Virus record (IMG/VR): IMGVR_UViG_3300020202_000205
Coordinates: 1-25,660 of that record
Origin: a virus
Length of the DNA: 25,660 nt
Strand: one strand, 5' to 3'
Part shown: positions 6,492 to 25,660 of the stretch, one piece after another
Layout: the number at the start of each line of letters is the position of its first letter
How positions within the stretch are numbered: the first letter of the stretch is position 1
The notes under the pieces: generated by a model
Database searches by the model: none
What the model saw: only the letters and a program-made list of their open reading frames with translations
What the model was told of the DNA's origin: nothing
Position numbers and translations under genes: made by a program

Positions 6492-6500
6492 TCCACCCTC

Positions 6501-9781: not shown

Positions 9782-10101
9782 GCGAGAGACGACAGCACGC
9801 CCGAAGACGCGATGCCCATCTCGGCGAGGTTGACGTTGCCGGCCGAGGCCGCCGCGTCGTTGTCGATGACGTTCGTCACCGCCATATCGACAACCTTGGT
9901 CAGGGTGCCGGTACGGATCGCGGTCGCCCACTGGAACACGCGGATGGTGTCGCCCTTCTTGAGGTTGAGCGAGTCATCCTTGTTGTTCATGTAGCCGGCC
10001 GCCTCGACATCGGGAACGATCTCATCGGTCGTGTCGTACCGATAAGAGCAGAACCCGTTGGCGTCGGAGAGGAGAGCGAGATTCGCAGCATTGAATGCCA
10101 T
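9778..10101 (-). CDS. capsid-associated protein following the major capsid gene
   Basis: The product has 107 residues. The opening MAFNAANLALLSDANGFCSY, with YRYDTTDEIV and DSLNLKKGDTIRVFQW after it, is a pattern I know from small proteins that directly follow the major capsid gene in many podovirus-like genomes, where they are thought to be decoration or head proteins. It looks beta-rich, soluble and without a signal peptide. The ATG at 10101 has AGGAGGG about eight bases upstream, one of the best ribosome binding sites in the window, suggesting high expression like the capsid gene. It lies 15 bases after the major capsid stop. Function as a head protein is inferred from position. Confidence 0.7.
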   Translation of the reverse strand: MAFNAANLALLSDANGFCSYRYDTTDEIVPDVEAAGYMNNKDDSLNLKKGDTIRVFQWATAIRTGTLTKVVDMAVTNVIDNDAAASAGNVNLAEMGIASSGVLSSLA

Positions 10102-10116: not shown

Positions 10117-11010
10117 TTAGCTGGTCGCGATGGCGGAAGTGTCGTTGAGGTTGGCCTCAATGACGCCCGTGCCGTCGATAAGGCACGCCTGACCGCTCAT
10201 CATGTGGTTGACGAAGTGCGCCGCACGATCACCGTGCCAGGTGATGTCCGCCGCCACCGAGGCATTGCCGGCGATGTTGCCCGCCGACTTCGCCGAAGCG
10301 TAGCCCACCGCCATCTTGTGCCATGCGAAGCACTTGGCGGTTGCCGTGCCCTTGCCGGGGAGACCGGTGTGCATCGTCCATTTGATGCCATTCCAGTCTT
10401 TCCATTTGCCGACGCCGACAGCCGGACCCTGCTTGTAGGGCAAGCCGTCGAAGCCGACGAACTCGGCGCGGGCGAAGGCGTCGATCAACGAGAGCTGGGA
10501 CCACGCGCGCGGGGTGAGCGCGGCGTAGACCTGACCGTCGTTTGGCACGTCGTTGTCCCACACCGCCTCGCAGAACTCGACGAAGGTGGCGTGGATCGTC
10601 GCCTTGGACGTGACCGTGATGGTGATCACGGTTTCCGTGGTCGTATCGAAGACCGTGGTGAGCTGGTCGTCGATCTTGCGGCCAAGGGCCATGGCACCGC
10701 CGGACGCGATGACATCGCGCTCGTTGATGTTGGTCTTGGCCTCATCCAGCTTGTCCACCCAGTCGCCGGCATAGAAGTCGGCGAGCGTGCAGGACGGAGC
10801 CGTATGCGTCTGGTTCATCGGCGTGATGGTGCCGTGACGAGATTTGGTCGTCGCAGTACCCTTGCCGATCTTCTGGAAGACCGCGGTGGAGCCCACAACA
10901 TCGGTCTTGTGGCGCACGGCCTGCAGCAGATGGGAGCCCATCCGCTGGAAGACCTCGTGCACCTTCGCCTCGTAAGAGGTGATGAAGGCAGTGTCAATCG
11001 AGGTTGACAT
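10117..11010 (-). CDS. major capsid protein (Phage_capsid_2-like, HK97-fold family)
   Basis: The product has 297 residues. The N-terminus (STSIDTAFITSYEAKVHEVFQ, then GSHLLQAVRHKTDVVGSTAVFQ and KIGKGTATTKSRHGTITPMN) and CTLADFYAGDWVDKLDEAKTNINERDV are hallmark segments of this podovirus capsid family; AMALGRKIDDQL and an HKMAVGYASA segment follow. It builds the icosahedral head on the scaffold encoded just upstream. I chose the ATG at 11010 because AAAGGAGA stands seven bases before it; an in-frame ATG at 11043 would place this site inside the gene. The 270-base leader before it is the longest gap in the late genes, as expected for a strongly and separately controlled gene. Confidence 0.93.
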   Translation of the reverse strand: MSTSIDTAFITSYEAKVHEVFQRMGSHLLQAVRHKTDVVGSTAVFQKIGKGTATTKSRHGTITPMNQTHTAPSCTLADFYAGDWVDKLDEAKTNINERDVIASGGAMALGRKIDDQLTTVFDTTTETVITITVTSKATIHATFVEFCEAVWDNDVPNDGQVYAALTPRAWSQLSLIDAFARAEFVGFDGLPYKQGPAVGVGKWKDWNGIKWTMHTGLPGKGTATAKCFAWHKMAVGYASAKSAGNIAGNASVAADITWHGDRAAHFVNHMMSGQACLIDGTGVIEANLNDTSAIATS

Positions 11011-11017
11011 ACCCGTT

Positions 11018-11025
11018 TCTCCTTT
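11018..11025 (-). promoter_or_regulatory. strong ribosome binding site of the major capsid gene
   Basis: AAAGGAGA on the minus strand, seven bases before the ATG at 11010. It fixes the start of the major capsid protein at MSTSID and argues against the in-frame ATG 33 bases upstream. Confidence 0.85.
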
Positions 11026-11162
11026 GGGGAGTTGCACAGGCATGTCCGTCTGAGAGCGCAGGTCGGAATCGCGGAGAGCCGTGAGGCGTCCGCTATCGTT
11101 CCATGCGCGGCTTAGGACTTGCGGTTTGTCGCTGTGTTTCCGGGGCCCCTACGGGAGACCGG

Positions 11163-12917: not shown

Positions 12918-13294
12918 GCGTTGGCGACGATCCGCAGGCGGGGCTTCTGCAACTCGCCGCCCGCCGAGATAACCTTGACGGTCTTGCCTTCAAGGTGGGC
13001 GAGAATGGCCTTCCAGTCGCCTTCGGCGCAAACCGCTTCCAGATCGGCATTCCTCGACCCGCCGCCGTGCTTCTCGTCGATCACCTGCCGCAACTCCCTG
13101 GCTTGGTCAGGCGGCAGCTTGTCCACCAGCGCCTTGAAGTCGATGGCGAACGAGCCGTCCGAGCGTTCCTTGGCGCACAGGGCGGCTTTCACGTCGCGCA
13201 GCTTGTTCTTCATCGGCTCCATCTGATCGCGGAGCGTCTTCTCCCGGGCCTCTGCGCTTTGGGCGCGATCGATCCACATGCTGTCGTCGCTCAA
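12914..13294 (-). CDS. hypothetical protein, helical
   Basis: The product has 126 residues. Charged helices with coiled-coil character cover about residues 8-45 (SAEAREKTLRDQMEPMKNKL), followed by FKALVDKLPPDQARELRQVID and a C-terminal beta part, EGKTVKVISAGGELQKPRLR. No family recognised. The start is TTG at 13294, overlapping the portal stop as TTGA; an ATG at 13279 is an alternative that would remove five residues. Its place between portal and scaffold is the usual site of small head-assembly proteins, which is the only hint of function. Confidence 0.65.
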   Translation of the reverse strand: MSDDSMWIDRAQSAEAREKTLRDQMEPMKNKLRDVKAALCAKERSDGSFAIDFKALVDKLPPDQARELRQVIDEKHGGGSRNADLEAVCAEGDWKAILAHLEGKTVKVISAGGELQKPRLRIVANA

Positions 13295-14949
13295 GCCGCC
13301 TTCTCCTGTGGCTGTAGGTTCTTCACCGCCTGGCTGCCCTTGTTCGCCGCGTCGGCCGTCATAACGGCCATCTGAGCTTCAGCCGCTTCCTGCTGGGCCT
13401 GCTGGCGCTCCCGACGAATGGCCGCGATCTTCTCGGGCGAGCGCACAACGACACGCGGGATGTTGTTCGCCTCGGCCTGGAACTGGCCAAGGGCATCGGT
13501 ATCAACGATGTCGAGGTGCGACGGGTCGTTGGTGAGCTTCACCATCTCGGCGCGCTCGCGGTAGAACGCAGCGGCAGCAGCCGCTTCGATCATCCGGCGC
13601 AGCTTCTTGATCGGGCTTGAATAGCGGAACTTGATCTGCCGGCCCTGCAGAACTTCGGGAATCGGATTGAACTGGAACGCCCGCAGCATGACCATGAACG
13701 AACGCTCGACGAGCGGGGCTTTGTAATCCGTATCCAGCCGGCCGAACACCGGGCCGATCTCGCGCATAATCTCTTCTCGCCGAGCCCGGATTTCCTCCGC
13801 CGTCATCTGCGGGCCATCAACGGGGAGGTTCAGCACGTTGCGCAGGAACGCCGCCCACACCTGTTCGCGCTTCTTGTCCTGCATCTCCAGGACGATGGGC
13901 ATCTTTGCGCCCGTCTCCAGCGGGGCAATCGGGATTTGGCCAATTTCCTTGGCCAGTTGAATGTCGTAGTAGCTGATCCCGCCCGGGAACGTGTTGGCGG
14001 CGTCGAACGAGCCATCGCTGGGGGCGAGCAAGGGAGGATCGGCGGCGCGCTGACCCGCAACCAACAGCGTCTCATCCATCGCCTGCAGCGTGTTCGCGTC
14101 GGGGAGCGCAATCATCCCGGGGCCGCGCCCCGTCGTTTCGCCCGAGCTGGTATCCCAGCGCGGGCAGGCGAAGGGGTATTCGGCGAACCCGCCCTCGTGG
14201 GCTATGTGCGACTGCTCAATCTCAATCCACAGATCGGCATAGGGCAGATTCTTTGCCAGCAATGCCCCCTGCGGCGCTTCCTTGCGCTGCACGACGCAAT
14301 GGAGGAAGTCGAAGCACTCGTCCCATTTGGGATCTTGGGCGGTGCACTTCTCCTGCAGCTTGGGGCTCAGCTTTTCCTTGGTGAAGCGATCGACGGCCTG
14401 CCGGAGCGTGTACTTGCGCATCCGGAACATGCCGTTGGGGTTGCCCTCGTCGTCGTAGAGCGGGACGGCATCCTTGGGATGGATAGTCTGGAACAGCAGG
14501 TTGGTGCGGATGGCATTCTCGCCGCTGAAGATGTGCGCGCCGCCAAAGGTCACGAGGTCGAGATTTGCCTCTCCTCTCGCTTGGCGGAATCTGGCCTTAG
14601 GATTGTCGAATGCCCCCTCAAGCTTGTCCTCGGCATCGGCCAGCCACGCCCTGGCCTCGTCGTCATCCGCGATATCCGCGTCCGCCGTCTCGATGAAGAA
14701 CGCCTGCTCGCCCTCCGGCCACAGCATCCCGTCCAGCGCATTGGCCAAAGACCGGGCGGCCTGCATACCCGTGCCGTCGTAAATGTCCTCGGACCTGCGA
14801 TCCCCCTCGTGGACTTGACTGATGAAGCCCAGGCGATTGGGCAGGAGAACCCGCGCAAGGTCCTCGCAATGCTGATGATAAGGCCCGAGGTCTTGAAGCC
14901 TCGCCTTCCACCGCTTGATCAACTCCTTGGCGCGGAGGTCGTCGGCCAT
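13291..14949 (-). CDS. portal (head-to-tail connector) protein, T7 gp8-like
   Basis: The product has 552 residues (T7 gp8 has 536). Recognisable segments in order: LIKRWKARLQDLGPYHQHCEDLARVLLP, DGTGMQAARSLANALDGMLWP, FGGAHIFSGE, RKYTLRQAVDRF, VQRKEAPQGALL, GRGPGMIALPDANTLQAMDE, PGGISYYD and a Gln/Ala-rich C-terminus. These are the conserved blocks of the podovirus Head-tail_con family, a dodecameric portal through which DNA is packed and ejected. ATG at 14949. The C-terminal 40 residues are coiled-coil-like. It lies upstream of scaffold and capsid, the T7 arrangement. No interruption seen. Confidence 0.93.
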   Translation of the reverse strand: MADDLRAKELIKRWKARLQDLGPYHQHCEDLARVLLPNRLGFISQVHEGDRRSEDIYDGTGMQAARSLANALDGMLWPEGEQAFFIETADADIADDDEARAWLADAEDKLEGAFDNPKARFRQARGEANLDLVTFGGAHIFSGENAIRTNLLFQTIHPKDAVPLYDDEGNPNGMFRMRKYTLRQAVDRFTKEKLSPKLQEKCTAQDPKWDECFDFLHCVVQRKEAPQGALLAKNLPYADLWIEIEQSHIAHEGGFAEYPFACPRWDTSSGETTGRGPGMIALPDANTLQAMDETLLVAGQRAADPPLLAPSDGSFDAANTFPGGISYYDIQLAKEIGQIPIAPLETGAKMPIVLEMQDKKREQVWAAFLRNVLNLPVDGPQMTAEEIRARREEIMREIGPVFGRLDTDYKAPLVERSFMVMLRAFQFNPIPEVLQGRQIKFRYSSPIKKLRRMIEAAAAAAFYRERAEMVKLTNDPSHLDIVDTDALGQFQAEANNIPRVVVRSPEKIAAIRRERQQAQQEAAEAQMAVMTADAANKGSQAVKNLQPQEKAA

Positions 14950-16592: not shown

Positions 16593-16744
16593 TTCAAAAC
16601 AAGACCGACCCTGAAGCACACGGCCACCACCCCAAAGATGGCAGACACTAGCCACCACATGCGCCGAAAACCGGGGTCCGGAGCGGTGTTTCCGGCTATC
16701 ACCGACAGCACCGACAGCATGCCGAAGAACTGCGCCTCGCTCAT
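16589..16744 (-). CDS. 51-residue membrane miniprotein
   Basis: The frame encodes 51 residues from the ATG at 16744. There are two hydrophobic stretches, FFGMLSVLSVIAG (about 6-18) and MWWLVSAIFGVVAVCFRVGLVL (about 29-50), separated by NTAPDPGFRR. Two short helices with a polar turn resemble small holin-like or other phage inner-membrane proteins, but nothing proves lysis function. The start overlaps the large terminase stop (ATGA) and the stop overlaps the next start (ATGA). It fills what would otherwise be an unexplained 150-base gap in a tightly packed operon. Confidence 0.65.
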   Translation of the reverse strand: MSEAQFFGMLSVLSVIAGNTAPDPGFRRMWWLVSAIFGVVAVCFRVGLVLK

Positions 16745-18108
16745 CGTCCGGCCCTCCAGCGCGTCGGGCTGTAGTTGCTGTTCGCTCTTGTCGGCAATGA
16801 CTTGGCGTTCGGGTCCTTGGGCTCTCTCAGCCCGATAGCGAGATAGCGGAACCCATCGGCGGGATGAGAGGTCCAGTCGTGCTCCGGGCGCTCCGAGAAC
16901 ACCTTGCGCTCATCGTCCCAGGCCTTGCGGTACTGCCTCAGCGCCTCAATGCCCCTCGAGCATTTCTCGGCGTCGAACCAGCAGCGCGGGAGAATCAGGC
17001 GTACGGCGTTGATGCCGTCCTCAAGCCGGTCGTTTGGAAGCACCCTGCCCTTAGATATGCCGAGGCTTTTCAGCGTCTCTATGCGCGTGCGCCCCGTGCT
17101 CAGGTCTTTCACCCGGGCGTCATGGGGCAACAGCGTGTCGCCGTAGACGTAGGGCTTCTCGCCCAGCACCTTGGCGTAGTGGTCGAGGCCGACGCCCGAA
17201 GCTTCGTAATAGTCGATCAGGCGAATTTCCCTGCCCGCTTGCTGGCAGAACCAGATCGCGGTGCTGTCGCCGATGCCAAGATCCCAAGCCGTGATAACCG
17301 GAAGGTCGGGCGCCCACGGCACATTGGTAATGCGCTTCTGGGCTTCGGCCGCTTCCATCAGCTTGCCGTAGTACGCCCCGACTAGAGCGGCTTGGAAGCT
17401 GCAGTAGTACTCTTGCTGGATCAGCTCCTCGGGCATGTCCGAGGCGCGCTCATCAGCAATGATCGATGGCGGGATGATCTTCGTATCGTCCACGGTCAGT
17501 TTCTCGGCGAACCAGCCGGGGTTAGACTTCGCCATCTCGTAGAGAGTGGCGCCGTGGTTCCTGCCCCGGGGCGTGTAGATGAACAGAGCCCAGCCGCCAT
17601 TCTCCGCAAGGATGGGCCGGATGTAATCCCATGCTCTCGGATCGGCCACGCTGTATTCGCTGAACACGACGCCGGCAGGATTCGCACCGATCAGGGCATC
17701 GAAGTTATCCGAACCGACCACCTGCCACGTTGACCCGCACTTGAGGCGGATCAGCATCTCGTCGTCGCGCTTGCCGCCTCTCAGAGACTCGGGAAAAGCT
17801 TGGTCGATAACCCGCCTGCCCTGACGGTCGATCGCTTCCCACACAACCTTCCGGCCCTGCTTGGCCGTGGGGAGCATGTGCCAGTAGTTGGCTACCCGTT
17901 CGTGGGCTGCGCACGCGGTGAAGTTCAGGGCGGTTGAGTCCTTGCCCGCCCGGCGGTGCCAGACGGCCACCGCGCGCTTACCTCCACCCTCCAGATAGCG
18001 CCACAGCCTAACTTGGTGGCCGCGCGGCTCCCACTCACTCGGAAGCGGAATCTCCCGCGCCAAACTTGCGAATGACGACGGTAATGGGGCTGTCAGCGTC
18101 GCCGGCAT
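16741..18108 (-). CDS. terminase large subunit
   Basis: The product has 455 residues. It is the ATPase and nuclease that packs DNA into the head. Walker A is HRRAGKDS (51-58), the Walker B-like strand VVFSEY has Glu at 151, and the coupling motif YTPRG is at 178-182. RNase H-like nuclease residues lie in AWDLGIGDS (D276), LLPHD (326-330) and HDWTSHPADGF (410-420). The Walker B Asp is replaced by Ser (FSEYS), a variant I have seen in podovirus-type terminases. I start at the ATG at 18108; a TTG two codons earlier is the only nearby alternative. It overlaps the small terminase gene by 74 bases. The ending ANSNYSPTRWRAGR is shared with a small neighbour. Confidence 0.95.
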   Translation of the reverse strand: MPATLTAPLPSSFASLAREIPLPSEWEPRGHQVRLWRYLEGGGKRAVAVWHRRAGKDSTALNFTACAAHERVANYWHMLPTAKQGRKVVWEAIDRQGRRVIDQAFPESLRGGKRDDEMLIRLKCGSTWQVVGSDNFDALIGANPAGVVFSEYSVADPRAWDYIRPILAENGGWALFIYTPRGRNHGATLYEMAKSNPGWFAEKLTVDDTKIIPPSIIADERASDMPEELIQQEYYCSFQAALVGAYYGKLMEAAEAQKRITNVPWAPDLPVITAWDLGIGDSTAIWFCQQAGREIRLIDYYEASGVGLDHYAKVLGEKPYVYGDTLLPHDARVKDLSTGRTRIETLKSLGISKGRVLPNDRLEDGINAVRLILPRCWFDAEKCSRGIEALRQYRKAWDDERKVFSERPEHDWTSHPADGFRYLAIGLREPKDPNAKSLPTRANSNYSPTRWRAGR

Positions 18109-18487
18109 GTTCAATTCGGTCGCGCCATTCCTTGGGCTTGCGGTTCTTCAGCCAGAAGATGCAGGCGGTCGTATCGGGCGGCGTGTGTTCGGTGTAATCC
18201 ACCGTCACGGGCGCGCCCTCATACTGAAAAATCTTCGTCGCTGCGTGGCTGTAGCCCGTCGCCTTACGGAACAGGCTTTGCTCAACCATCTGGTCGGCCA
18301 CGTCCTTCCCGTGCTTTAGGGCCTGACAAAAATCAGGGTGCTCGTGCTTCCAGCGATAGATGGTCCGCACGTCCACCTTAAAGAACTCGGCTAGGTCGGC
18401 GTCGGTCGCCCCCAACTCGCAAGCCTTCTTGGCCTGATCGATAAATTCGGGTTTGAAGTCGCTAGGACGACCCTTGGGCTTCGGCAT
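18035..18487 (-). CDS. terminase small subunit
   Basis: The product has 150 residues. It opens with the basic MPKPKGRPSDFKPEF, then a helix-turn-helix (GATDADLAEFFKVDVRTIYRWKHEHPDF, about 26-53), VADQMVEQSLFRKATGYSH, and a C-terminal block PPDTTACIFWLKNRKPKEWRD (about 108-128). The last block is typical of small terminases of this class. It recognises phage DNA and loads the large subunit. ATG at 18487, without a strong ribosome binding site; two GGGAAC copies lie just upstream. The long overlap with the next gene implies coupled synthesis of the two subunits. Confidence 0.9.
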   Translation of the reverse strand: MPKPKGRPSDFKPEFIDQAKKACELGATDADLAEFFKVDVRTIYRWKHEHPDFCQALKHGKDVADQMVEQSLFRKATGYSHAATKIFQYEGAPVTVDYTEHTPPDTTACIFWLKNRKPKEWRDRIEHAGDADSPITVVIRKFGAGDSASE

Positions 18488-18558
18488 GGGATAGGTTCCC
18501 GGTGTTCCCGACTAGGGGGCAGATAACTGCTTGGTCGTGTGTTCGGGGCCGGGAGTGG

Positions 18559-19065
18559 TTAAGCCGCCAGCGGGCGGACGTGCTCGCGCGGCAGGGTGAC
18601 GTTCGTTGCTCTACCGAAGACTTGAGCCTTCACGCTCACACTCGGGGTGTGATCAGCGCGGGTGATGAAGGCTGTGCAACCCGTGAAATTGCCGCAGATG
18701 ATCTCCACGGCCTGGCCGTAGCTCAGGGGCACCCTCTCGTGCACGTCGGTGTTCAGGCCCGACTCGATCTCCCGCACGACCTCGATTTGAACGTCCGGTA
18801 CGGGCTTGGGACGCTGCGAGGCATCCACCATGACCGCCCTTACCCCCTGCCGGCTGAAGATGTCGGGCCAGCGGGGATGATCGGGCGAAAAGCGGGCGAA
18901 CAGATAGCCGGGCAGCATGGCGCGGCTGATCACCTTGGATCTGCGGCCCCTGCGGATGCGCAGGCTGTAGCGGGGCAGATAAACTTCAATGCCGAGATTC
19001 GATATGGCGTAGGCTGCGGCGAATTCCGCTCGGGCGTTAGCCTCGATGACGAACCACGCCAGCAT
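18559..19065 (-). CDS. NusG/RfaH-like transcription antiterminator
   Basis: The product has 168 residues with an N-terminal NGN domain. WFVIEANARAEFAAAYAIS (4-22) is followed by GIEVYLPRYSLRIRRGRRSKV, MLPGYLFARF (50-59) and QGVRAVMVDASQRPKPVPD (73-91). A KOW domain follows, with YGQAVEIICGNFTGCTAFI (about 116-134) and a VTLPREHVRPL end. This is the full layout of NusG paralogues such as RfaH, which bind RNA polymerase and suppress pausing or termination. The ATG at 19065 overlaps the upstream stop (TGATG). It is the last gene before the packaging and structural operon, so antitermination of the late genes is the obvious hypothesis. Confidence 0.85.
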   Translation of the reverse strand: MLAWFVIEANARAEFAAAYAISNLGIEVYLPRYSLRIRRGRRSKVISRAMLPGYLFARFSPDHPRWPDIFSRQGVRAVMVDASQRPKPVPDVQIEVVREIESGLNTDVHERVPLSYGQAVEIICGNFTGCTAFITRADHTPSVSVKAQVFGRATNVTLPREHVRPLAA

Positions 19066-19376
19066 CAGGCAAGCATCCGCCGCTTGTGCACGCCCAGTTT
19101 TGCGCACACGGGGTTGCGGCTCGGCGCCGCGTCGCTCGCTACCAATGGCGCATCTGACGCAGGCTGTGAATTGTTATTATGTTCATGAACATTATTCTTG
19201 GCGTCACGCCAGAGCATCCAAAGCCGGGTGCGGCCCATGCCGTACTTGGCCATGAGGTCTTTCCAGTCGATGCCCTGCTCTCTTGCTGCAACCAGCTCAC
19301 GCCCGATGTCCATGCGAACAGTGGGCGATAGGGGCCGGCGACGGGGGCCGTTGTAGGGCTTGCCATCCTCGCTCAC
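19065..19376 (-). CDS. small helix-turn-helix protein
   Basis: The product has 103 residues from GTG at 19376 (GTGA overlap with the upstream stop). A basic start (GPRRRPLSPTVRMDIGREL) leads to a probable HTH, GIDWKDLMAKYGMGRTRLWMLWRD (about 35-58). A low-complexity segment KNNVHEHNNNSQPAS follows, encoded by an AT-rich patch, and then a basic tail. It could bind DNA as a regulator, or act with the NusG-like protein encoded next. The family is not recognised. The long frame upstream of the GTG is a shadow of the zinc-binding gene. Confidence 0.65.
   Translation of the reverse strand: MSEDGKPYNGPRRRPLSPTVRMDIGRELVAAREQGIDWKDLMAKYGMGRTRLWMLWRDAKNNVHEHNNNSQPASDAPLVASDAAPSRNPVCAKLGVHKRRMLA
19179..19192. 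repeat. 14-base AT-rich palindrome upstream of the NusG-like gene
   Basis: ATGTTCATGAACAT is a perfect palindrome in an AT-rich patch of otherwise GC-rich DNA. It lies within the small HTH gene (the VHEHN codons), about 115 bases before the NusG-like start. It has the form of a dimer operator; TAAT-type strings next to it could serve as a -10 element on the minus strand. No -35 element is clear. Confidence 0.45.
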
Positions 19377-19579
19377 GGTCGCGCCCCCGCCAGATGAAAC
19401 TTCCGACAATGCGGGCAGTGGTAGACCTTGCGCGGTCGCGTCTTGCGCTTGCGCCTCGCTACCCGCGCCGCCTCGGTAAACGTCGCGAAGGGGGCCTTGC
19501 CGATACAACTGGCGGCGCGTGAGCCTCGTCCGCCCAAGCGGGGCTGGGCGATCTTTTCAATGAGGGCGGGGCCGATCAC
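19373..19579 (-). CDS. small putative zinc-binding basic protein
   Basis: The product has 68 residues. FATFTEAARVARRKRKTRPRKVYHCPHCRKFHLAG (about 31-65) has a Cys-x2-Cys pair with a downstream His, the 'Y.CphC..wHl' form seen in small phage zinc-ribbon proteins, preceded by a very basic helix. It may bind nucleic acid. The start is GTG at 19579, overlapping the upstream stop (GTGA), and the stop overlaps the next GTG. Confidence 0.7.
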   Translation of the reverse strand: MIGPALIEKIAQPRLGGRGSRAASCIGKAPFATFTEAARVARRKRKTRPRKVYHCPHCRKFHLAGARP

Positions 19580-19809
19580 GGCTTATAGGCCCTCCCGTCA
19601 ACGCTGATCACGCAGACCTTGTGAGTCTCAGGCCCGACCCACCGTTTCTGCCGTGGCGCAAAGCCGCCCACATCGCGATACACCCGCGCCTCAACCATCG
19701 TGCAGGGCTCTACCTTTGGCCCGTCCTTGCTGTCGATGGTTACGGCCTCGTCACAGCCTATGAACAGCGGCAACGCGAACAGGGCACTGAGCTTCCTCGG
19801 TCTACTCAC
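19576..19809 (-). CDS. small putative lipoprotein
   Basis: The product has 77 residues. MSRPRKLSALFALPLFIGCDEAV is a basic start, a hydrophobic core and a lipobox-like FIGC with Cys at 19, followed by a polar domain (VARVYRDV-like strand, GPETHKVCVISVDGRAYKP). Export and lipid attachment at the envelope are predicted, though the -2 Ile is not ideal. Small phage lipoproteins can be outer spanins or entry-exclusion proteins; size alone cannot tell. The start is GTG at 19809. No inner-spanin partner is recognised next to it. Confidence 0.55.
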   Translation of the reverse strand: MSRPRKLSALFALPLFIGCDEAVTIDSKDGPKVEPCTMVEARVYRDVGGFAPRQKRWVGPETHKVCVISVDGRAYKP

Positions 19810-19882
19810 GCGGGGGCTCCCAAAACTTCGGGCCGTTCAGCACGAAAGCAACAACAGCCGAAACCAGAAGGGCCGAGAGCAA
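19802..19882 (-). CDS. candidate 26-residue membrane miniprotein
   Basis: From a TTG at 19882 the frame reads LLSALLVSAVVAFVLNG and then KFWEPPRE, a single membrane helix with a polar end. An alternative frame in the same DNA (ATG at 19901, stop ending at 19806) encodes MKIALYIALGPSGFGCCC and 13 more residues. It has perfect ATGA/GTGA coupling but a less protein-like composition. Only one is likely real; I favour the membrane helix on composition and the other on start context, so confidence is low for both. Confidence 0.35.
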   Translation of the reverse strand: MLSALLVSAVVAFVLNGPKFWEPPRE

Positions 19883-19897
19883 TGTAGAGCGCGATCT

Positions 19898-20347
19898 TCA
19901 TGCCGCATTCCCCTCCCCGGCCAGGAGATGACGGGGGACCTCGCAGTGGGGCTCGCCAGGTTTGGGGCCCCAGGAGGTCATCCAGAGATTGGACTCTCGC
20001 CAGCACTTCATGCGGAAATTCCACTCCTTGGTTTTTGCGTCGATCGGTTGAAACGCTGTCGGCTGCCAGAATCCGGGGGGTGGTTTGCGGGCGGGCGGTT
20101 CGGCAGAACGATTGACGCCAACCTCATCGGTCCATCGTTCGCCGTTCAGCCAGGTCGAGGGGTGGGCGATGTATTGCGGTTCCTTGCCCTGCACCTCTTT
20201 CCGGTATCGCTCCACGCCCTCCATGATTTCCTCGAAGCTCGCTAGCCGTCTCGCCTTTGGCCACTGGCGTCTTGCATAACCCTTCGCCACCTTCCGCGGA
20301 TATTGCTGCCAGAACGCCTCGAACTCTTCGTCCATCCGTCGCCCCAT
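19898..20347 (-). CDS. replication-initiator/replisome-organiser C-terminal-like protein
   Basis: The product has 149 residues. The start MDEEFEAFWQQYPRKVAKGYARRQWPKARR, with GVERYRKEVQG, YIAHPSTWLNGERW and later KEWNFRMKCWRE, is the conserved 'F..fW..YPrkv.k..A...w.k' module found at the C-terminus of phage replication initiators that load helicase. Here it stands alone without an N-terminal DNA-binding domain. ATG at 20347, or more likely 20335, which has GGGGCGG directly upstream. It is the first gene after the intergenic region with repeats and stem-loops, which fits a replication module next to its control region. Confidence 0.7.
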   Translation of the reverse strand: MGRRMDEEFEAFWQQYPRKVAKGYARRQWPKARRLASFEEIMEGVERYRKEVQGKEPQYIAHPSTWLNGERWTDEVGVNRSAEPPARKPPPGFWQPTAFQPIDAKTKEWNFRMKCWRESNLWMTSWGPKPGEPHCEVPRHLLAGEGNAA

Positions 20348-20373
20348 CGATTTTTGAACGTCGCCTATATCTC

Positions 20374-20386
20374 TCTGACCCTATGG
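20374..20386 (-). repeat. 13-mer copy 1 (CCATAGGGTCAGA), possible promoter-like site
   Basis: On the minus strand CCATAGGGTCAGA, preceded by GGGGATTCA. The second copy 85 bases away differs at one base. The TAGGG core before a run of purines recalls T7-type single-subunit RNA polymerase promoters (CACTATAGGGAGA), but no such polymerase is visible here. A protein-binding repeat is equally possible. It lies 27-39 bases upstream of the replication-like gene. Confidence 0.45.
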
Positions 20387-20458
20387 TGAATCCCCGAGCG
20401 AAGGACAAAGCACTAGATAACCGTCGTCCAGACGGGCTTTGCTTCATCCTTCGCGACT

Positions 20459-20471
20459 TCTGACCCTACGG
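20459..20471 (-). repeat. 13-mer copy 2 (CCGTAGGGTCAGA)
   Basis: This copy matches copy 1 at 12 of 13 positions, on the same strand. Upstream bases are partly alike (CGGG, then CC). Such a match within 85 bases of non-coding DNA is unlikely by chance. Confidence 0.45.
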
Positions 20472-20492
20472 AGCCATCCCGTCGCTTCGGAC

Positions 20493-20519
20493 CTGAACGA
20501 GCCGGCAATGGCCGTTCAG
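20493..20519. other. stem-loop 1 of the intergenic region
   Basis: CTGAACG pairs with CGTTCAG. After one bulged A, GCC pairs with GGC, leaving a six-base loop. No T-run follows on either strand, so an RNA element or protein/origin site is more likely than a terminator. Confidence 0.5.
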
Positions 20520-20533
20520 TTGGGACCCACTTA

Positions 20534-20551
20534 GTGAGGATTGCCCCTCAC
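20534..20551. other. stem-loop 2 of the intergenic region
   Basis: GTGAGG pairs with CCTCAC around a six-base loop, 14 bases from stem-loop 1. No T-run follows. Confidence 0.4.
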
Positions 20552-20619
20552 ACCCGCCCAGCTCGTCCCGTTCGCACCGCTGGTGGGGCCATGCGTCGTG
20601 GTTGCCCCTATGTCCACTA

Positions 20620-20652
20620 TCCCGCCGCCACTGTTTTCATCGTCCGGCGGGA
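20620..20652. other. stem-loop 3 of the intergenic region
   Basis: TCCCGCCG pairs perfectly with CGGCGGGA around a 17-base loop. No T-run follows on either strand. It lies 16 bases past the stop of the 37-codon ORF. Confidence 0.5.
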
Positions 20653-20668
20653 CTGAAGTTCCTTCGCT

Positions 20669-20782
20669 CTATCGTTTCGTCCTTATTTGCATGTGAGACG
20701 ATTTGCTGTTTGTCGCAACACAAAACACACCGCGAGTCGAAGATTCTACGAGTGGATTGTGCGAGATGTGTGGAGTAGTCAT
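20669..20782 (-). CDS. candidate 37-residue ORF
   Basis: The ATG at 20782 overlaps the stop of the DUF7303-like gene as ATGA, the pattern used throughout this genome. The product is polar and Ser/Thr/His-rich (MTTPHISHNPLVESS start, KSSHMQIRTKR end) with no recognised family. The DNA here is clearly less GC-rich than its surroundings, so this may instead be leader sequence. Support is only from start context. Confidence 0.35.
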   Translation of the reverse strand: MTTPHISHNPLVESSTRGVFCVATNSKSSHMQIRTKR

Positions 20783-21003
20783 GCGACTCGCCAAACCCTC
20801 ATCCCGTCCGACTGACGGCGCGCGGTGTACTTGTGTCCCAACACCTTGGCGTAGTGGTTGTGCATGGAGAAATGACGGCGGGGCACGAAGAACGAATCCC
20901 CCACCTTCATCTTGCTGAATATCTCTCTCCAGTAGCCACGCTTCGATCCCGTCGAATAGTGCGGCGGGATGGGCACGCCGGGCTGTATCTGGACCCGGAG
21001 CAT
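20779..21003 (-). CDS. DUF7303-like small phage protein
   Basis: The product has 74 residues. The pattern VQIQPGVPIPP, GYWREIFSKMKVGDSFFVP (about 23-41) and a basic region ending GMRVWRVA is that of a common small phage protein ('GipiP...r....yp...m.vGdSFFvp...~~~~vWRv'). These are found among early genes of many phages; their function is not known to me. The ATG at 21003 overlaps the GcrA-like stop (TGATG). Upstream codons in the frame are a shadow of that gene. Confidence 0.75.
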   Translation of the reverse strand: MLRVQIQPGVPIPPHYSTGSKRGYWREIFSKMKVGDSFFVPRRHFSMHNHYAKVLGHKYTARRQSDGMRVWRVA

Positions 21004-21464
21004 CACGCGGCCTCCCGGTACTTGGGTGGCAGAACGAGCACCGTATGACAGGCCGGGCACCAGCTCTTGCCCAACACCGACGGTTTGCCGCACATCTGCG
21101 CATGACGGCCGATGCCGGAGACGATGTTCAGGCAGGTGCGCTTGGGGTCCAGAACGACCGGTGTGGGGAGTCCCGTCTTCAGTCGCTCCCGGTAGTTCTT
21201 ATTGAGAAGGCGGTACTTCTCCCGGTTCTGGGCAACGTAGCGGCGTTCGCGCTCAAGCCGGCGGCGCTTCAATTCCTCAACGGGTAGAAGCTCGCGCTTG
21301 GCGCGGTGCGGGCGGCGGCTCAATAGGCCCTTTATCTGCAGCCGGTGGGCCTTGCCGACAACCTGACCCGGGGTCAGGCCCAAGGCGTGGGCAATCTCGA
21401 CGACCTTAAGGCCGTCCTCCCACAGCCGCGTCAGCTCACTTACTCGTTCTCTTGTCCACTCCAT
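21003..21464 (-). CDS. GcrA-like cell-cycle regulator family protein
   Basis: The product has 153 residues. The N-terminal WTRERVSELTRLWEDGLKVVEIAHALG (3-29), followed by TPGQVVGKAHRL (31-42), is the GcrA HTH. In Caulobacter it binds sigma-70 polymerase and CcrM-methylated GANTC promoters. A long basic helix (about 50-98) follows, and the C-terminus has CGKPSVLGKSWCPACH (C125, C136, C139, H140, plus C111) like the Cys-containing GcrA tail. The family is typical of Alphaproteobacteria and so supports the host assignment. ATG at 21464 with GGGGGCGG just upstream. It overlaps the previous gene by 29 bases. A phage copy could redirect host transcription or the cell cycle. Confidence 0.82.
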   Translation of the reverse strand: MEWTRERVSELTRLWEDGLKVVEIAHALGLTPGQVVGKAHRLQIKGLLSRRPHRAKRELLPVEELKRRRLERERRYVAQNREKYRLLNKNYRERLKTGLPTPVVLDPKRTCLNIVSGIGRHAQMCGKPSVLGKSWCPACHTVLVLPPKYREAA

Positions 21465-21615
21465 GCCGCCCCCGCTGAATCTTGGTGGATGATTCTTGAA
21501 TCAATCTCGACCATCGCCCGTGATGCCCGGGCCACTCGGTTACGACTTCGTATCCTTCCGGCATTTCCCATTCCTTCGGGTACAGCCACACCTCGATAAC
21601 GTCGCCGGGTTTCAT
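21436..21615 (-). CDS. small hypothetical protein
   Basis: The product has 59 residues from the ATG at 21615, which overlaps the upstream stop (ATGA). MKPGDVIEVWLYPKEWEMPEGYEVVTEW is a compact beta-type start (the 'kPGd.vev' opening suggests a small barrel), followed by a basic tail (HHGRWSRLIQESSTKIQRGRHGVDKR). No family recognised. It overlaps the GcrA-like start by 29 bases. Confidence 0.65.
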   Translation of the reverse strand: MKPGDVIEVWLYPKEWEMPEGYEVVTEWPGHHGRWSRLIQESSTKIQRGRHGVDKRTSK

Positions 21616-21908
21616 GCAGCCCTCACGAATCTGTACGCCCACAAGCCGTTTCCCAGGTGCTTGGATTGCTTGGTCCAACCCTTCCACCCGTCGATGTCCC
21701 TCATCCTTGCCGATACGCTGGCCTCGGGATCTCCCGTTGCTGCGGAAATCTCCTTGAGCGTCCGCCACTGCCCATCGGTGACGACGTTCAGCACGCGAAG
21801 GAACTGAGCACCCAAGCGGGCTCCGTCGCGCTTCTTATCGAACGTGCTGCCTCTCGGTTCTGGCGGAACCCAATTCCCCAAGGGCGTGCCGGTGAGGGAG
21901 GAGGTCAT
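21612..21908 (-). CDS. winged-helix DNA-binding protein
   Basis: The product has 98 residues. GAQFLRVLNVVTDGQWRTLKEISAATGDPEASVSARMRDI (about 33-72) is a clear winged helix: helix 1, TDGQWRTLKEI, recognition helix ASVSARMRDI. The wing GNGLWAYRFVRA closes the fold. Similar small proteins occur beside RusA-like resolvases in phages. ATG at 21908 overlapping the RusA-like stop (ATGA). Possible regulator of early genes; target unknown. Confidence 0.78.
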   Translation of the reverse strand: MTSSLTGTPLGNWVPPEPRGSTFDKKRDGARLGAQFLRVLNVVTDGQWRTLKEISAATGDPEASVSARMRDIDGWKGWTKQSKHLGNGLWAYRFVRAA

Positions 21909-22285
21909 TGGTAGCCTGCCGCTTTAACGCGGGCGTCTGTCGCGGGCTCGCCGTAGGGCTCGACCGATACCAAGAGGTCCGGCGAGTCGTGCCGCTCTAC
22001 GGTCAATTTCTCAATCTGCTTGTCGTCCGCCAGAACCCCGTGCTTCACCAGCAAATCAATCGGCGCCTTGCAGAAGTTGTCGATATCGCGGGAGACAGGC
22101 TTGCGCGGGACATAGAGCCCCACCTGCACCTTCATGGTGCCGAACCTCTCGGGGCGCGCGATCATCAACAGCGTGGCGGCTTCTTTCAGCCAGGACTTGT
22201 AGGTGCCCGTGATGAACCGGCCGCCGCTCTTGGCGTTGGCGAAAAGATTGTTCGTCGAGGGCGGAACCGGGAGCCTAATCAGCAT
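21905..22285 (-). CDS. RusA-like Holliday junction resolvase
   Basis: The product has 126 residues, the usual RusA length (about 120). LPVPPSTNNLFANAKSGGRFITGTYKSWLKEA (5-36) is the conserved opening, and SRDIDNFCKAPIDLLVKHGVLADDKQIEKL (65-94) carries the catalytic acidic residues (D69, D87, D88) and Lys73. It resolves branched DNA during recombination or before packaging. ATG at 22285 with GAGG just upstream. This ribosome binding site directly follows the U-tract of a strong terminator, so the gene is probably expressed by readthrough. A gene symbol is not given because the match is to the family only. Confidence 0.87.
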   Translation of the reverse strand: MLIRLPVPPSTNNLFANAKSGGRFITGTYKSWLKEAATLLMIARPERFGTMKVQVGLYVPRKPVSRDIDNFCKAPIDLLVKHGVLADDKQIEKLTVERHDSPDLLVSVEPYGEPATDARVKAAGYQ

Positions 22286-22294
22286 TCAGTCCTC

Positions 22295-22330
22295 AAAAAA
22301 CGCCGGCCTCAGTTTTCGGCCAAGGCCGGC
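22295..22330 (-). terminator. intrinsic terminator/attenuator before the RusA-like gene
   Basis: In the minus-strand transcript GCCGGCCT pairs perfectly with AGGCCGGC across a 13-base loop, followed by GTTTTTTG. This is a textbook Rho-independent terminator. It ends 10 bases before the RusA-like start codon, leaving no room for a promoter between them. Confidence 0.88.
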
Positions 22331-22346
22331 TAGTCCGCTCGGGGAG

Positions 22347-22793
22347 TTACGCGGCAAACAAGTTGGTCTGCTCTTTCGCTTCCTTGTAGCGGATGAGTTC
22401 GTCGGCGTGCTTGAAGCACCCGTGGCCCATGCGCCGATACTCTTCGGCTTTCGCCTCCAACTCGGTTGAGGTGAGTTGGTCAATCGGGATGATGACCTGA
22501 TCGCCGCCGCGCTCGACGAGGTAGCGCTTGCACAGATGCTCGAACCCCGGGAGCAAGAGCGACGGGTCGGCGTCGTCCTCTTCCATTTTCAGGTTGCGCA
22601 GAACCTTGCGGACGGCGTAGCGCGCGTGCTCGCGTCCACACAGAACGTAAAAATCCCGGTCCTCGCCGTGCACGTCCGGGTGCAAACTGATGACGCTCTG
22701 CACAATCCAACTCGCGGGTGCCGGGCGGGCTTGCGCGAGCGTGTCGTCGATAACCTTGCCAATTTCTGCAAACAACTGACTTTCGGTGTACAT
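22347..22793 (-). CDS. conserved phage hypothetical protein
   Basis: The product has 148 residues. HPDVHGEDRDFYVLCGREHARYAVRKVLR (about 38-66) and LLPGFEHLCKRYLVERGGDQVIIPIDQLTSTELEAKAEEYRRMGHGC (about 79-125) form a pattern I have met in early regions of alphaproteobacterial phages; no biochemical function is known to me. The protein is helical and soluble, with no signal. The ATG at 22793 immediately follows the upstream stop, with GGAGAAA as ribosome binding site. It is the last gene before the terminator. Confidence 0.75.
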   Translation of the reverse strand: MYTESQLFAEIGKVIDDTLAQARPAPASWIVQSVISLHPDVHGEDRDFYVLCGREHARYAVRKVLRNLKMEEDDADPSLLLPGFEHLCKRYLVERGGDQVIIPIDQLTSTELEAKAEEYRRMGHGCFKHADELIRYKEAKEQTNLFAA

Positions 22794-23555
22794 TCATTTC
22801 TCCAGAGAAACGATCAGCCGGTCTAACCAACCGTCTATGGTTGCGATGTGTCGTCTTATGGCCGCGTGCTCGTGCGGCAACGCTCCGCGCGCAATGACAA
22901 TCGGATCGGTCTGCGCCGCGAACTCTGCAAATCGTCTGAGGTGCCCCTGACCCTGCGTGGACAACGAAAACTCCGCCGGATCGCGATCCCCCAAATCAAT
23001 TAGCGTCCGCGTCTTCTTCCCCTGCTCAGCAAGTGCCGTGACGGTCGGCGGGTCGTCGCCTTCAACCGTCGCCTCAAAATCCTCGGCGGGCACGGATGCA
23101 ATGCGAAGCGCCTGCCTCTTTTGGTCCTGCGACATCCCGGCTGAAATCGCCGCATTGGTGCGGGACCGCATGGCCCATTGTGGATCGATTGCGGCTATAC
23201 GCTTGTTTGCTTGGTCTCGCGTCAATTCGCCTGCGGCCAATTTTTCCAGAACGCTGTCGATTTGGGTCTGTTGCTTGGCCGCTAACTCGGGGGGGCGCCC
23301 CCCCGAGTTTTGGGGGACTTGTTTCAGCAGTTCGCCGCATCGTCTGATTGCTCGCGCCTGAATGCGGTCTGCCATCTTCCGCATTTGGTCGTCGTTGGCC
23401 TGCTTCGCGTAACTCGCGAGCGCTTCGGCCTTGTTTGCCCATTCGGCGCACTCGTCGATTCGTGAGCACTCGGAAAGGGCGCTCTTGGCCGCCTCATACG
23501 TAGCGGGTAGGCGGGCCCGAGATACGTCGGGAAGATTTGCGGGAAGTGCTGTCAT
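22794..23555 (-). CDS. conserved phage protein, helical, unknown function
   Basis: The product has 253 residues. The N-terminal part YEAAKSALSECSRIDECAEWANKAEALASYAKQANDDQMRKMADRIQARAIRRCGELL (about 20-77) is a helical block seen in many phage and prophage proteins, followed by a NSGGRPPE turn. A middle region, RDQANKRIAAIDPQWAMRSRTNAAISAGMSQDQKRQALRIASV, resembles helical DNA-binding modules. The C-terminus is helical. Function is unknown; a nucleic-acid role is a guess. The codons for the SGGRPPEL turn form a 26-base perfect palindrome. ATG at 23555 overlapping the upstream stop (ATGA). Confidence 0.75.
   Translation of the reverse strand: MTALPANLPDVSRARLPATYEAAKSALSECSRIDECAEWANKAEALASYAKQANDDQMRKMADRIQARAIRRCGELLKQVPQNSGGRPPELAAKQQTQIDSVLEKLAAGELTRDQANKRIAAIDPQWAMRSRTNAAISAGMSQDQKRQALRIASVPAEDFEATVEGDDPPTVTALAEQGKKTRTLIDLGDRDPAEFSLSTQGQGHLRRFAEFAAQTDPIVIARGALPHEHAAIRRHIATIDGWLDRLIVSLEK
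23284..23309. repeat. 26-base perfect palindrome inside a coding region
   Basis: AACTC, seven G, CG, seven C, GAGTT: every base pairs with its mirror. It lies within the gene at 22794-23555 and encodes the NSGGRPPEL segment. As RNA it would form a very stable hairpin; as DNA it could be a symmetric protein site. In the plus direction it is followed by TTTT, in the minus direction by AGCGGCC. Confidence 0.7.
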
Positions 23556-23881
23556 GCGGCCACCATCTCAGCCAGAGCATCCAGTGCGGGGGACAGCTTG
23601 TTGACGGCCTGGATCGCGGCGGCTTTGCGGGCGTCGTGCATCTTGGCGATCACCACGCCATGCGCGCCGTACACCTCATTGGCAAAGCCGGCATCGAAAA
23701 ACTGGATCATCAGGCCCATCACGTATCCGTCCGGTTGCGAGTACTCGTTCAGGTAGTTGTCGATCGTGTCTTCGTCTTTGCCGATGGCGTGCGCGAGGTG
23801 CTTCCGCGTTACGCCTGTATTCGGGTAGAGGCGAGCGCGGATGGCATTTGAGAGCGATCTTCTGAAATCATGCCGTGTCAC
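23552..23881 (-). CDS. HTH-type regulator-like protein
   Basis: The product has 109 residues from the GTG at 23881 (GTGA overlap). FRRSLSNAIRARLYPNTGVTRKHLAHAIGKDEDTIDNYLNEYSQP (about 6-50) contains a helix-turn-helix (VTRKHLAHAIGKDEDTIDNYL, 24-44), followed by GLMIQFFDAGFANEVYG and an Ala-rich helical end. This resembles small phage repressor or CII-like regulators, but the exact family is not recognised. Upstream codons in the frame are a shadow of the next gene. Confidence 0.7.
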   Translation of the reverse strand: MTRHDFRRSLSNAIRARLYPNTGVTRKHLAHAIGKDEDTIDNYLNEYSQPDGYVMGLMIQFFDAGFANEVYGAHGVVIAKMHDARKAAAIQAVNKLSPALDALAEMVAA

Positions 23882-24180
23882 GCCGCGCCCGGTGGTTCGT
23901 TCGGAGAAGGTTCTCCCCCCTCCCGGTAAATTTTTTTCCACGTCGATGCTCCATCCTGGTGAGGATGAAGCCGAGCAACCCCGAGAGCATGAAGTTGGAG
24001 AGCGACAATGGACGCGACGACCAAGGCACCCTGGCAGGTAAGCTCGGTCCAAGCGTCCATGTAGCTCCGTGCGGAACGGCGATGTTCGGGGAAAAGGATG
24101 ATTTCCGCTGGCGCCGCATCGGGTGGCACAGCGCGCAGATAATTTCGCGGTTGAGGAAAGGCGTGGATTGATGCGGTCAT
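23878..24180 (-). CDS. hypothetical protein, possibly membrane-associated
   Basis: The product has 100 residues. The ATG at 24180 overlaps the upstream stop (ATGA) and the stop overlaps the next GTG (GTGA). A Pro-rich start with DAAPAEIILFPEHRR is followed by a hydrophobic segment, GALVVASIVALQLHALGVA (about 51-69), and a charged end. A second frame in the same DNA (stop at 23868) also encodes a hydrophobic, then basic, peptide from an ATG (MLSGLLGFILTRME...). The main frame is supported by coupling at both ends; the other may be an embedded membrane miniprotein. Confidence 0.55.
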   Translation of the reverse strand: MTASIHAFPQPRNYLRAVPPDAAPAEIILFPEHRRSARSYMDAWTELTCQGALVVASIVALQLHALGVARLHPHQDGASTWKKIYREGGEPSPNEPPGAA

Positions 24181-24365
24181 GGGCGGACCTCAGTGAAGAA
24201 GCCGCCGAAGTACAGCAGGCCGAAACTAAGGGCGGCGCCGAACATGGACAGCGCAAGGCTGTGCTTTGTTTTCCTCGGCTCGCCGTCAAGAACGGCCGCG
24301 ACAAACAACGAAAAGCCCGTCAGGCAAAGCCACGTAATCTGCGGCCACGCCCATACCCAATTCAT
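24177..24365 (-). CDS. small two-helix membrane protein
   Basis: The product has 62 residues from the ATG at 24365 (ATGA overlap). Helix one is WPQITWLCLTGFSLFVAAVL (about 7-26), then a polar loop DGEPRKTKHS, helix two LALSMFGAALSFGLLYFGGF, and a TEVRP tail. Small phage membrane proteins with this 'hG.p...~HsF..~l......~LyyGGFF' pattern are common, of unknown function. The size would suit a holin, but the setting among early genes argues against that. Confidence 0.75.
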   Translation of the reverse strand: MNWVWAWPQITWLCLTGFSLFVAAVLDGEPRKTKHSLALSMFGAALSFGLLYFGGFFTEVRP

Positions 24366-24592
24366 TTCTGCCCCCAATCCAGCTTGGCAGGCTCATCCTT
24401 CGGCTTAATCCGCCGCACGGATTCGCGGAGGGCTTCTAGCGTCGAGAGATTCATATTCGCGGGAATAGGTGGGGGCTCGCCGGGAGGTGTTGACGAGCCC
24501 CCGGCACCGTCCGGGATCGGGGGAGATTGGACGATGCCTGCCGCCGGATTGAGCCCAGCGACCAGAGGAAAATGATGTGAGAAGTCGTTCAC
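24362..24592 (-). CDS. small hypothetical protein with proline-rich centre
   Basis: The product has 76 residues from the GTG at 24592, which overlaps the upstream stop (GTGA). It opens VNDFSHHFPLVAGLNPAAG; a Pro/Gly-rich linker (about 25-47) leads to a charged helix LSTLEALRESVRRIKPKD and an ending LDWGQK. No known family. The long reading frame upstream of the GTG is a shadow of the DGQHR gene. Confidence 0.65.
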   Translation of the reverse strand: MNDFSHHFPLVAGLNPAAGIVQSPPIPDGAGGSSTPPGEPPPIPANMNLSTLEALRESVRRIKPKDEPAKLDWGQK

Positions 24593-25563
24593 GAGTGCGC
24601 CCAAGCGGGCTGCGGCAGCATCAGTTTCTTCCTGTCGCGGGACTCTTCGGCAAGCCGCCGCACGAAGATAGCTTTCAGGCGCGAGTAGCACGGCGTCCGG
24701 TCGCGGTCGGAGAGATTTCGGCCCTGCAACCAGTCGATGTAGTCGCTCGCTGCGGACACCGACATCAGGCACTTCTTGAAGTCGTTGATGCCGAGCACGA
24801 CGTAGCGCTTGATCGTCCGCTCGCGGTCCATGACGAGCTTCCGCCACAGCCACATGCAGAGCGTGAGATTGAGATTGCCCCAGAGGCGGTAGTACTCAGG
24901 GTCGCGCCCCCACGCGCTGTAGGCCGTGAGCAGGAATCGGATCAGGTGTTCCGTGCTCTCGTCCGTCAGGGAGGTCGCCAGATTGCTGGCCGAATTGCCG
25001 GCGCTGGTGGCCGGAGTTTCGCCCGCAGAGGCGGCCCAGCAGCGCAGCAGGGCAGACATTCCAACGATGGGCGCCCCGCTCGCGTTGCGGCGGATGTTGT
25101 CGTAGCCGACGAAACCGCAGTCGTGCCGGATCTTGGCGAGAGGGCGGCAGTTCTCTTCGAGCCCCCGCAGGATGTCGTCGGGCCGCATCTTGACGATGCT
25201 GGAATTGAGCCGCACGAACTCCTCGGCCATGTCGGCCATGCTGTCGAATCGGCACAGCCGAAGATCGGCAATGATCTCCGTCAGGCCGGACAGCTTGAAC
25301 GCCTCCGTGCGGTGCTGGCCGTCCACCAGCCAGATGGTCGGGTCATTTTTGACCTGACCCAGCGTGATGACGCCATTGATCTCCAGAGCGTTGGCCTTCA
25401 TCTCCTCGGCCATCGTGAGGACCTTGGTGTTCACGCGAAGCGGACGCTGGAACGGCGGAATGCGCCACTCGCGCGCCTGACCAAGCGTGATAATCGCCGT
25501 TTCCATGCGGCTCTGCGCCGCCTTGGGGGCCTCTTTCAGATTGCGGATCGGGATCACGGTCAC
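24589..25563 (-). CDS. DGQHR-motif (ParB/DndB-like N-terminal) protein
   Basis: The product has 324 residues. WRIPPFQRPLRVNTKVLTMAEEMKAN (33-58), then ITLGQVKNDPTIWLVDGQHRTEAFKLSG with DGQHR at 81-85, is the ParB/Srx-like core also found in DndB and DUF262 proteins. The remaining 200 residues are helical and not recognised (LRGLEENCRPLAKIRHDCGFVGYDNIRRN, DPEYYRLWGNLNLTLCMWLWRKLV). The DGQHR family includes NTP-binding, nuclease and regulatory proteins, so activity cannot be assigned. The start is GTG at 25563 with AAGGAGAG six bases upstream, overlapping the preceding stop (GTGA). Confidence 0.75.
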   Translation of the reverse strand: MTVIPIRNLKEAPKAAQSRMETAIITLGQAREWRIPPFQRPLRVNTKVLTMAEEMKANALEINGVITLGQVKNDPTIWLVDGQHRTEAFKLSGLTEIIADLRLCRFDSMADMAEEFVRLNSSIVKMRPDDILRGLEENCRPLAKIRHDCGFVGYDNIRRNASGAPIVGMSALLRCWAASAGETPATSAGNSASNLATSLTDESTEHLIRFLLTAYSAWGRDPEYYRLWGNLNLTLCMWLWRKLVMDRERTIKRYVVLGINDFKKCLMSVSAASDYIDWLQGRNLSDRDRTPCYSRLKAIFVRRLAEESRDRKKLMLPQPAWAHS

Positions 25564-25660
25564 GCCGCCTCTCCTTTCAAGGGTTCGTATCCAAGCTCAC
25601 GGATGAATGCGGCCCGAGCTGACGCGCAGGCCGCGTCCCAGGCGCCCCTTAAAAAAGCGA
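25560..25660 (-). CDS. C-terminal end of an upstream gene (partial)
   Basis: An open minus-strand frame enters at the right edge and runs 32 codons to a TGA that overlaps the next start as GTGA. The peptide is helical (AFLRGAWDAACASARAAF) and ends LGYEPLKGEAA. No family can be named from this fragment, but the coupled overlap supports a real gene in the same operon. Confidence 0.6.
   Translation of the reverse strand, partial: AFLRGAWDAACASARAAFIRELGYEPLKGEAA

Follow-up and report, generated by a model that had tools for sequence, protein, structure and literature searches.

GcrA is a cell-cycle transcription factor of the Alphaproteobacteria that recognizes methylated DNA. It acts through binding to domain 2 of sigma-70 (PMC7403470), and an extended GcrA motif, YGAKTCG, has been described (PMC7987155). 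GcrA homologues of phiCbK-like phages were reported in 2012 and were proposed to raise the replication state of the host; one of them, gp222 of phiCbK, has 41 residues in common with the Caulobacter protein (PMC3556154). The gp5 protein of Agrobacterium phage Atu_ph08 was likewise reported as a GcrA (PMC6630229), and the idea of recruitment has already been published for it as well as for phiCbK; further GcrAs are present in phiLM21-like prophages (PMC12429752) and in a coral-associated Rhizobiales phage (PMC11309003). Neither phage-borne GcrA nor the proposal of recruitment is therefore new. Since 2012, the view of phage GcrA has been that it copies the epigenetic cell-cycle activator of the host.

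A GcrA-Family Gene on a Phage Record

The window analyzed here is the whole IMG/VR virus record IMGVR_UViG_3300020202_000205, a linear sequence of 25,660 bases that is probably a fragment. All genes that we identified are carried by the minus strand, and those for tail and head are found toward its low-numbered end:

5278-6198, minus strand: glycosyltransferase-like protein, within the sugar-gene set
6501-7610, minus strand: GDP-mannose 4,6-dehydratase/epimerase (PF16363, 209 bits)
10117-11043, minus strand: capsid
13291-14949, minus strand: portal
16741-18114, minus strand: terminase large subunit, downstream of the gcrA-like gene and transcribed in the same direction (497 phage records match)
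18559-19107, minus strand: NusG/RfaH-like antiterminator, downstream of the gcrA-like gene (PF02357 NusG, 50.6 bits; phrog_6386)
19898-20347, minus strand: replication-initiation-like (rep-like) gene, downstream of the gcrA-like gene (phrog_270, E 9e-26)
20779-21003, minus strand: small protein, next downstream, with an ATGA overlap with the gcrA-like gene (no confident PHROG)
21003-21464, minus strand: GcrA-family protein P0001, 153 amino acids (PF07750; AF2 model with a mean pLDDT of 88)
21905-22285, minus strand: RusA, upstream of the gcrA-like gene

An earlier note on this DNA had placed a GcrA-like regulator, carried by a phage, at 21003-21464. Both parts of this claim hold: an open reading frame with an ATG start occupies exactly this interval on the minus strand and passes the PF07750 family cut-off (44.9 bits versus 26.9), while the capsid, portal, RusA and terminase large subunit genes identify the record as that of a phage. 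The P0001 gene is part of a contiguous minus-strand run whose starts and stops overlap; its own stop overlaps the ATG of the small gene that follows (20779-21003). Between this small gene and the rep-like gene lie 431 bp (20348-20778) without a convincing ORF and with a G+C content of 56% versus 62%, which we regard as a candidate control region. A scan of positions 18000-25660 for sigma-70 promoter-like sites, made with the E. coli consensus, found none, and the window contains neither tRNAs nor known RNA families.

Several other features of the window were noted. The NusG/RfaH-like gene (18559-19107, minus strand) is located immediately upstream of the terminase genes, the usual place of late regulators in other phages; its product scores below the cut-offs of the RfaH and UpxY models. 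A set of sugar genes (4698-9931, minus strand) separates the capsid from the tail genes and possibly serves the decoration of the surface or of the DNA. Between the capsid and the sugar genes is a GIY-YIG endonuclease-like ORF (8604-9287, minus strand; PF01541, 26.7 bits), perhaps a homing endonuclease. The product of the ORF at 7607-8119 (minus strand) has a CxxC motif and, after it, a winged helix of the OmpR type, which narrowly misses the Trans_reg_C cut-off (25.7 versus 26.2 bits); an ORF of comparable build adjoins the GcrA-like gene of L279, a record with a related capsid. A ParB/GmrSD-N-like protein with weak matches only is encoded near the end of the record (24589-25563, minus strand).

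Domain Organization of P0001 and Its Altered Recognition Helix

P0001 can be divided into three parts, one of which contains the site of a sequence motif that is discussed below:

21333-21464, minus strand: N-terminal DNA-binding domain (DBD), residues 1-44, three helices (61.7 bits against the cellular DBD profile)
21135-21332, minus strand: basic linker, in which residues 62-97 are predicted to form a long helix (DSSP of the model)
21006-21140, minus strand: C-terminal Cys domain, residues 109-153, C-x13-C-x10-C-x2-CH (35.9 bits against the phage-tail profile; Foldseek rank 1, 5yix_B)
21111-21134, minus strand: site of the near-invariant box CxWPxGxP, which reads CLNIVSGI, so that the box is lost

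The match to PF07750 extends over residues 1-136, but residues 1-60 alone yield 44.3 of the 44.9 bits and nearly all of the score comes from residues 1-47; the Pfam family call therefore rests on the HTH. To profiles for the DBD and the tail that we built from 106 cellular GcrAs, we added an AF2 model of P0001 based on 54 aligned sequences. The score against the cellular DBD profile agrees with the view of the earlier note that the HTH is kept, and the predicted HTH overlays the DBD of Caulobacter GcrA (5yiv_A) with an rmsd of 0.8 and a Z of 8.1 (VIA). The recognition helix, however, has changed. It reads TPGQVVGKAHRL in P0001, as compared with T/S-R/K-N-A-V-I/V-G-K-x-H-R-L in the cellular proteins, and its start, [TS][RK][NS] in 106 of 106 cellular GcrAs, is TPG, with PG replacing the [RK]N pair. 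P0001 also falls far below the cut-off of the NCBIfam equivalog for the sigma-70 cofactor GcrA (NF050816; 38.3 versus 280 bits). MarR, LexA and rubredoxin were considered as identities and rejected, all matches being under their own cut-offs. Judged from its sequence, P0001 is a true, albeit diverged, phage-borne relative of the GcrA family.

The linker carries a net charge of +0.20 per residue over 64 amino acids, more than 108 of 110 cellular linkers and all 63 phage linkers measured, and the model predicts a helix of 36 residues in it. Of the two adjectives that had been applied to it earlier, basic is thus borne out and long is not, given that 82 of the 110 cellular linkers equal or exceed it in length.

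The Cys Domain Is Related to the Sigma-Interacting Domain of GcrA and Lacks the Sigma Box

The cysteine residues of the P0001 tail (C111-x13-C125-x10-C136-x2-C139-H) align with the pattern of cellular GcrA (C-x14-C-x9/10-C-x2-H), and the three tail cysteines are invariant across 54 aligned sequences, in keeping with the earlier description of a preserved Cys-rich tail. At the fourth ligand position P0001 has a Cys followed by a His, where cellular GcrA has a His. The domain possibly forms a metal-binding zinc knuckle.

We compared the tail with a profile made from the tails of 44 phage GcrAs, from which P0001 was excluded. Its 35.9 bits were matched neither by 10,000 free shuffles, the best of which gave 13.9, nor by 9477 shuffles in which the cysteines were held fixed (best 16.5); the latter control matters because the tails in the profile had been picked by their Cys-spacing pattern. 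Against the cellular profile the tail scores only 4.9-7.0 bits, and 7.0 bits were reached by 21 of 8800 Cys-fixed shuffles. In a Foldseek search of 350,542 chains with a model of the tail alone, the top rank went to 5yix_B, in which the sigma-interacting domain (SID) of GcrA is in complex with domain 2 of sigma-70 (TM 0.57/0.63); with an E of 3.7, which is insignificant alone, this predicted fold match lends support to an SID-like tail but does not prove it. From its sequence we regard the P0001 tail as homologous to the GcrA SID, with which the model shares a likeness in fold.

Of the 106 cellular GcrAs, 104 contain the box CxWPxGxP, and the remaining two have CKFPIGDP. With the W and P residues gone from P0001, and with 7.0 bits against the cellular SID, the contact to sigma may have been lost.

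Phage GcrA Proteins and the Position of Their Genes

GcrA is common on phages: a single scan of IMG/VR gave 207 confirmed stretches, and in GenBank 77 phage records match the Caulobacter protein in full or in part, including those of phiCbK-like, Brevundimonas, Rhizobium and Phaeobacter phages. Lactobacillus phages are also among the GenBank matches, in the HTH alone, so that an HTH match by itself does not mean GcrA. The box, written as CxWPxGxP or CxFPxGxP, is kept in 14 of the 80 viral GcrA proteins that we examined, and 59 of the 80 still score at least 15 bits against the cellular tail profile, with P0001 near the bottom at 4.9 bits. As far as their sequences tell, phage GcrAs commonly lack the sigma box, and few have diverged as far as P0001.

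In a tree of HTH and tail, P0001 is found in a mostly viral region and pairs with the phage protein L310 (IMGVR_UViG_3300006802_017075; support 96/84), although few columns were available and many forks are open. The tail of this sister protein, CKRVIGEVGKGHKHCGQPVIPGQAWCPAC, is also devoid of the box and has a C-x2-C end, and its gene is positioned upstream of a terminase-like gene; unlike P0001, it keeps TKNA in the recognition helix, and the likeness between the two is only distant. P0001 matches positions 4-85 of PHROG 16311, a family of unknown function (34.5 bits), the tail being missed, whereas other phage GcrAs match this PHROG over nearly its full length; these near end-to-end matches suggest that PHROG 16311 represents the GcrA family of phages. 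A tblastn search of INPHARED with P0001 (E 0.01) returned no phage record, and megablast and blastn searches with the P0001 region returned no match.

Among the relatives of this phage by capsid, PF07750 was found at the family cut-off in three of 50 records, one of them (L280) doubtful for want of the Cys tail; among those by terminase it was found in none of 39. Many of these records are fragments, and the rarity of the gcrA-like gene in them suggests that it is not fixed in this phage lineage. The neighbor of the GcrA-like gene in L279 is a ParB-methylase-like ORF that encodes a DPPY motif (ORFs at 467, 1273 and 1661, reverse strand), and the two may form a regulator-methylase pair.

At other phage GcrA loci, for which similar lengths of sequence were searched on both sides of the gene, terminase (4 of 4), NusG-like (6 of 6), rep (8 of 10) and RusA (5 of 5) genes are located downstream on the same strand. 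In the window, the genes for rep, the NusG-like protein and terminase are likewise downstream; unlike at the other loci, RusA is upstream here. The position of the P0001 gene ahead of these three downstream genes fits that of an early or middle regulator.

GANTC Sites in the Window

GANTC is depleted in the record, with 63 sites versus 125 expected from dinucleotide shuffles; a higher-order Markov model expects about 86, so that the depletion is real while its size depends on the model. The extended motif YGAKTCG is depleted as well (9 versus 24.7 expected). GANTC is under-represented in CcrM-encoding genomes (PMC3973325), and the depletion hints at a CcrM-positive host; avoidance of restriction would look alike. 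Two YGAKTCG sites are found upstream of the rep-like gene, at 20733 within the 431-bp gap and at 20784 at its edge. Around the gcrA-like gene, about 1.06 kb contain 9 GANTC sites versus 4.5 expected locally (P 0.04, local shuffles), but a record-wide scan for clustering gave P values of 0.05-0.93 depending on a window size chosen after the fact, none of them robust. One dense group was considered separately:

21477-21502, no strand: three GANTC spanning 26 bp, inside a small ORF and immediately before the start of the gcrA-like gene

With P = 0.16 for such a group anywhere in the record, it is within chance and was rejected as a signal. No N6/N4 methylase (PF01555) was seen in the window. Methylase-like ORFs occur near other phage gcrA genes at 8 of 80 loci versus 5 of 160 controls, in a motif scan that is crude and too weak to use. 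Taken as sequence data, the GANTC and methylase findings neither support methyl-dependent binding by P0001 nor tell decisively against it.

A Possible Mechanism for P0001 and Its Alternatives

We tentatively favor the view that P0001 is a phage-specific activator that works through the host RNA polymerase with an altered DNA specificity, a reading that falls just short of an even call and in which we infer the sigma contact from fold and family. P0001 combines a Myb/HTH domain with a basic, probably helical linker and a small, presumably Cys-coordinated domain with an SID-like fold. The HTH would bind near promoters, the linker would strengthen DNA binding without regard to sequence, and docking on the polymerase of the host would be left to the Cys domain, in the simplest case through domain 2 of sigma-70, which GcrA binds too. 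Docking would then favor open-complex formation at phage promoters, perhaps those for replication or late genes; the P0001 gene itself is part of the early/replication gene run. Since both the DNA preference and the polymerase contact seem to have diverged, a need for GANTC methylated by CcrM is improbable or reduced. The scores of the DBD and of the tail, the first rank of 5yix_B, the pairing with L310 among viral sequences and the downstream gene order speak for this view of P0001; the missing W and P of the box, the low score against the cellular SID, the insignificant Foldseek E, the upstream RusA and the lack of promoter-like sites in 18000-25660 weigh against it.

The earlier note had suggested that a phage GcrA could recruit sigma-70 polymerase to methylated phage promoters; the GcrA architecture of HTH, linker and Cys domain is well supported in P0001, and the sequence goes in part against the recruitment. 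In its full form, the suggestion would make P0001 a functional mimic with affinity for both m6A-GANTC and sigma-70, which switches on methylated phage promoters or host S-phase promoters. The shared architecture, the overlay of the DBD on that of GcrA, a GANTC depletion that suits a CcrM-positive host (PMC3973325), the local excess of GANTC around the gene and the two YGAKTCG sites upstream of rep are consistent with such a role; yet the equivalog score (38 versus 280 bits), the scarcity of GANTC and YGAKTCG and the lack of robust genome-wide GANTC clustering make it improbable. The loss of DNA- and sigma-contact residues, which the same note had named as speaking against it, is found in part: the sigma box and the [RK]N pair are gone, as judged by near-invariance in cellular GcrAs and not from a contact map. 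A kept DBD next to a lost box, which many other phage GcrAs also lack, would suit an antagonist that occupies promoters or GcrA partners without activating and thereby damps GcrA/CcrM-dependent transcription of the host. A competitor for host sites should, however, avoid changes in its recognition helix, and we consider this role very unlikely. P0001 might also be a DNA-binding repressor or a nucleoid-type protein whose Cys domain has another partner, for instance a phage protein, and makes no sigma contact; the weak fit to the cellular SID, the exchange of His for Cys at the fourth ligand position and the exceptionally basic linker point in this direction, but the phage-tail profile ties the domain firmly to GcrA tails, some of which keep parts of the sigma box, and we hold this option to be unlikely.

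Beyond the activator role of P0001, it is conceivable, though in our estimate rather doubtful, that GcrA evolved in phages into a class of its own, activators that dock on sigma but bind other DNA targets, in which the reader of methyl-GANTC and the canonical box were dropped and the Cys domain was kept. Phages would then possess their own GcrA switch, independent of methylation and placed ahead of their genes for replication, the NusG-like protein and terminase. With most sampled phage versions lacking the sigma box, and with the helix of P0001 changed, the annotation of a phage gene as "GcrA cell cycle regulator" should not be read as methylation-dependent control of the cell cycle.

Comparison with Known GcrA Systems

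A limited literature search returned no description of the loss of the box in most sampled phage GcrAs or of the [RK]N pair in P0001. Caulobacter GcrA, whose DBD (5yiv), SID together with sigma-70 domain 2 (5yix) and complex (7ye1) are represented by structures, has the same order of HTH, linker and Cys domain as P0001; the DBDs differ by an rmsd of 0.8 and the Cys spacing is nearly equal. The two proteins differ where Caulobacter GcrA has CKWPIGDP and P0001 CLNIVSGI, where TRNA corresponds to TPGQ, and at the ligand position held by a His in Caulobacter GcrA and by a Cys in P0001. The Caulobacter linker is richer in Ala and Pro, whereas that of P0001 is basic and predicted to be helical. With the published phage proteins (phiCbK gp222, Atu_ph08 gp5 and those of the phiLM21-like prophages and of the coral phage) P0001 shares the presence of a GcrA-family gene on an alphaproteobacterial phage; gp222 of phiCbK still matches the SID part of the Caulobacter protein, from which P0001 has diverged.
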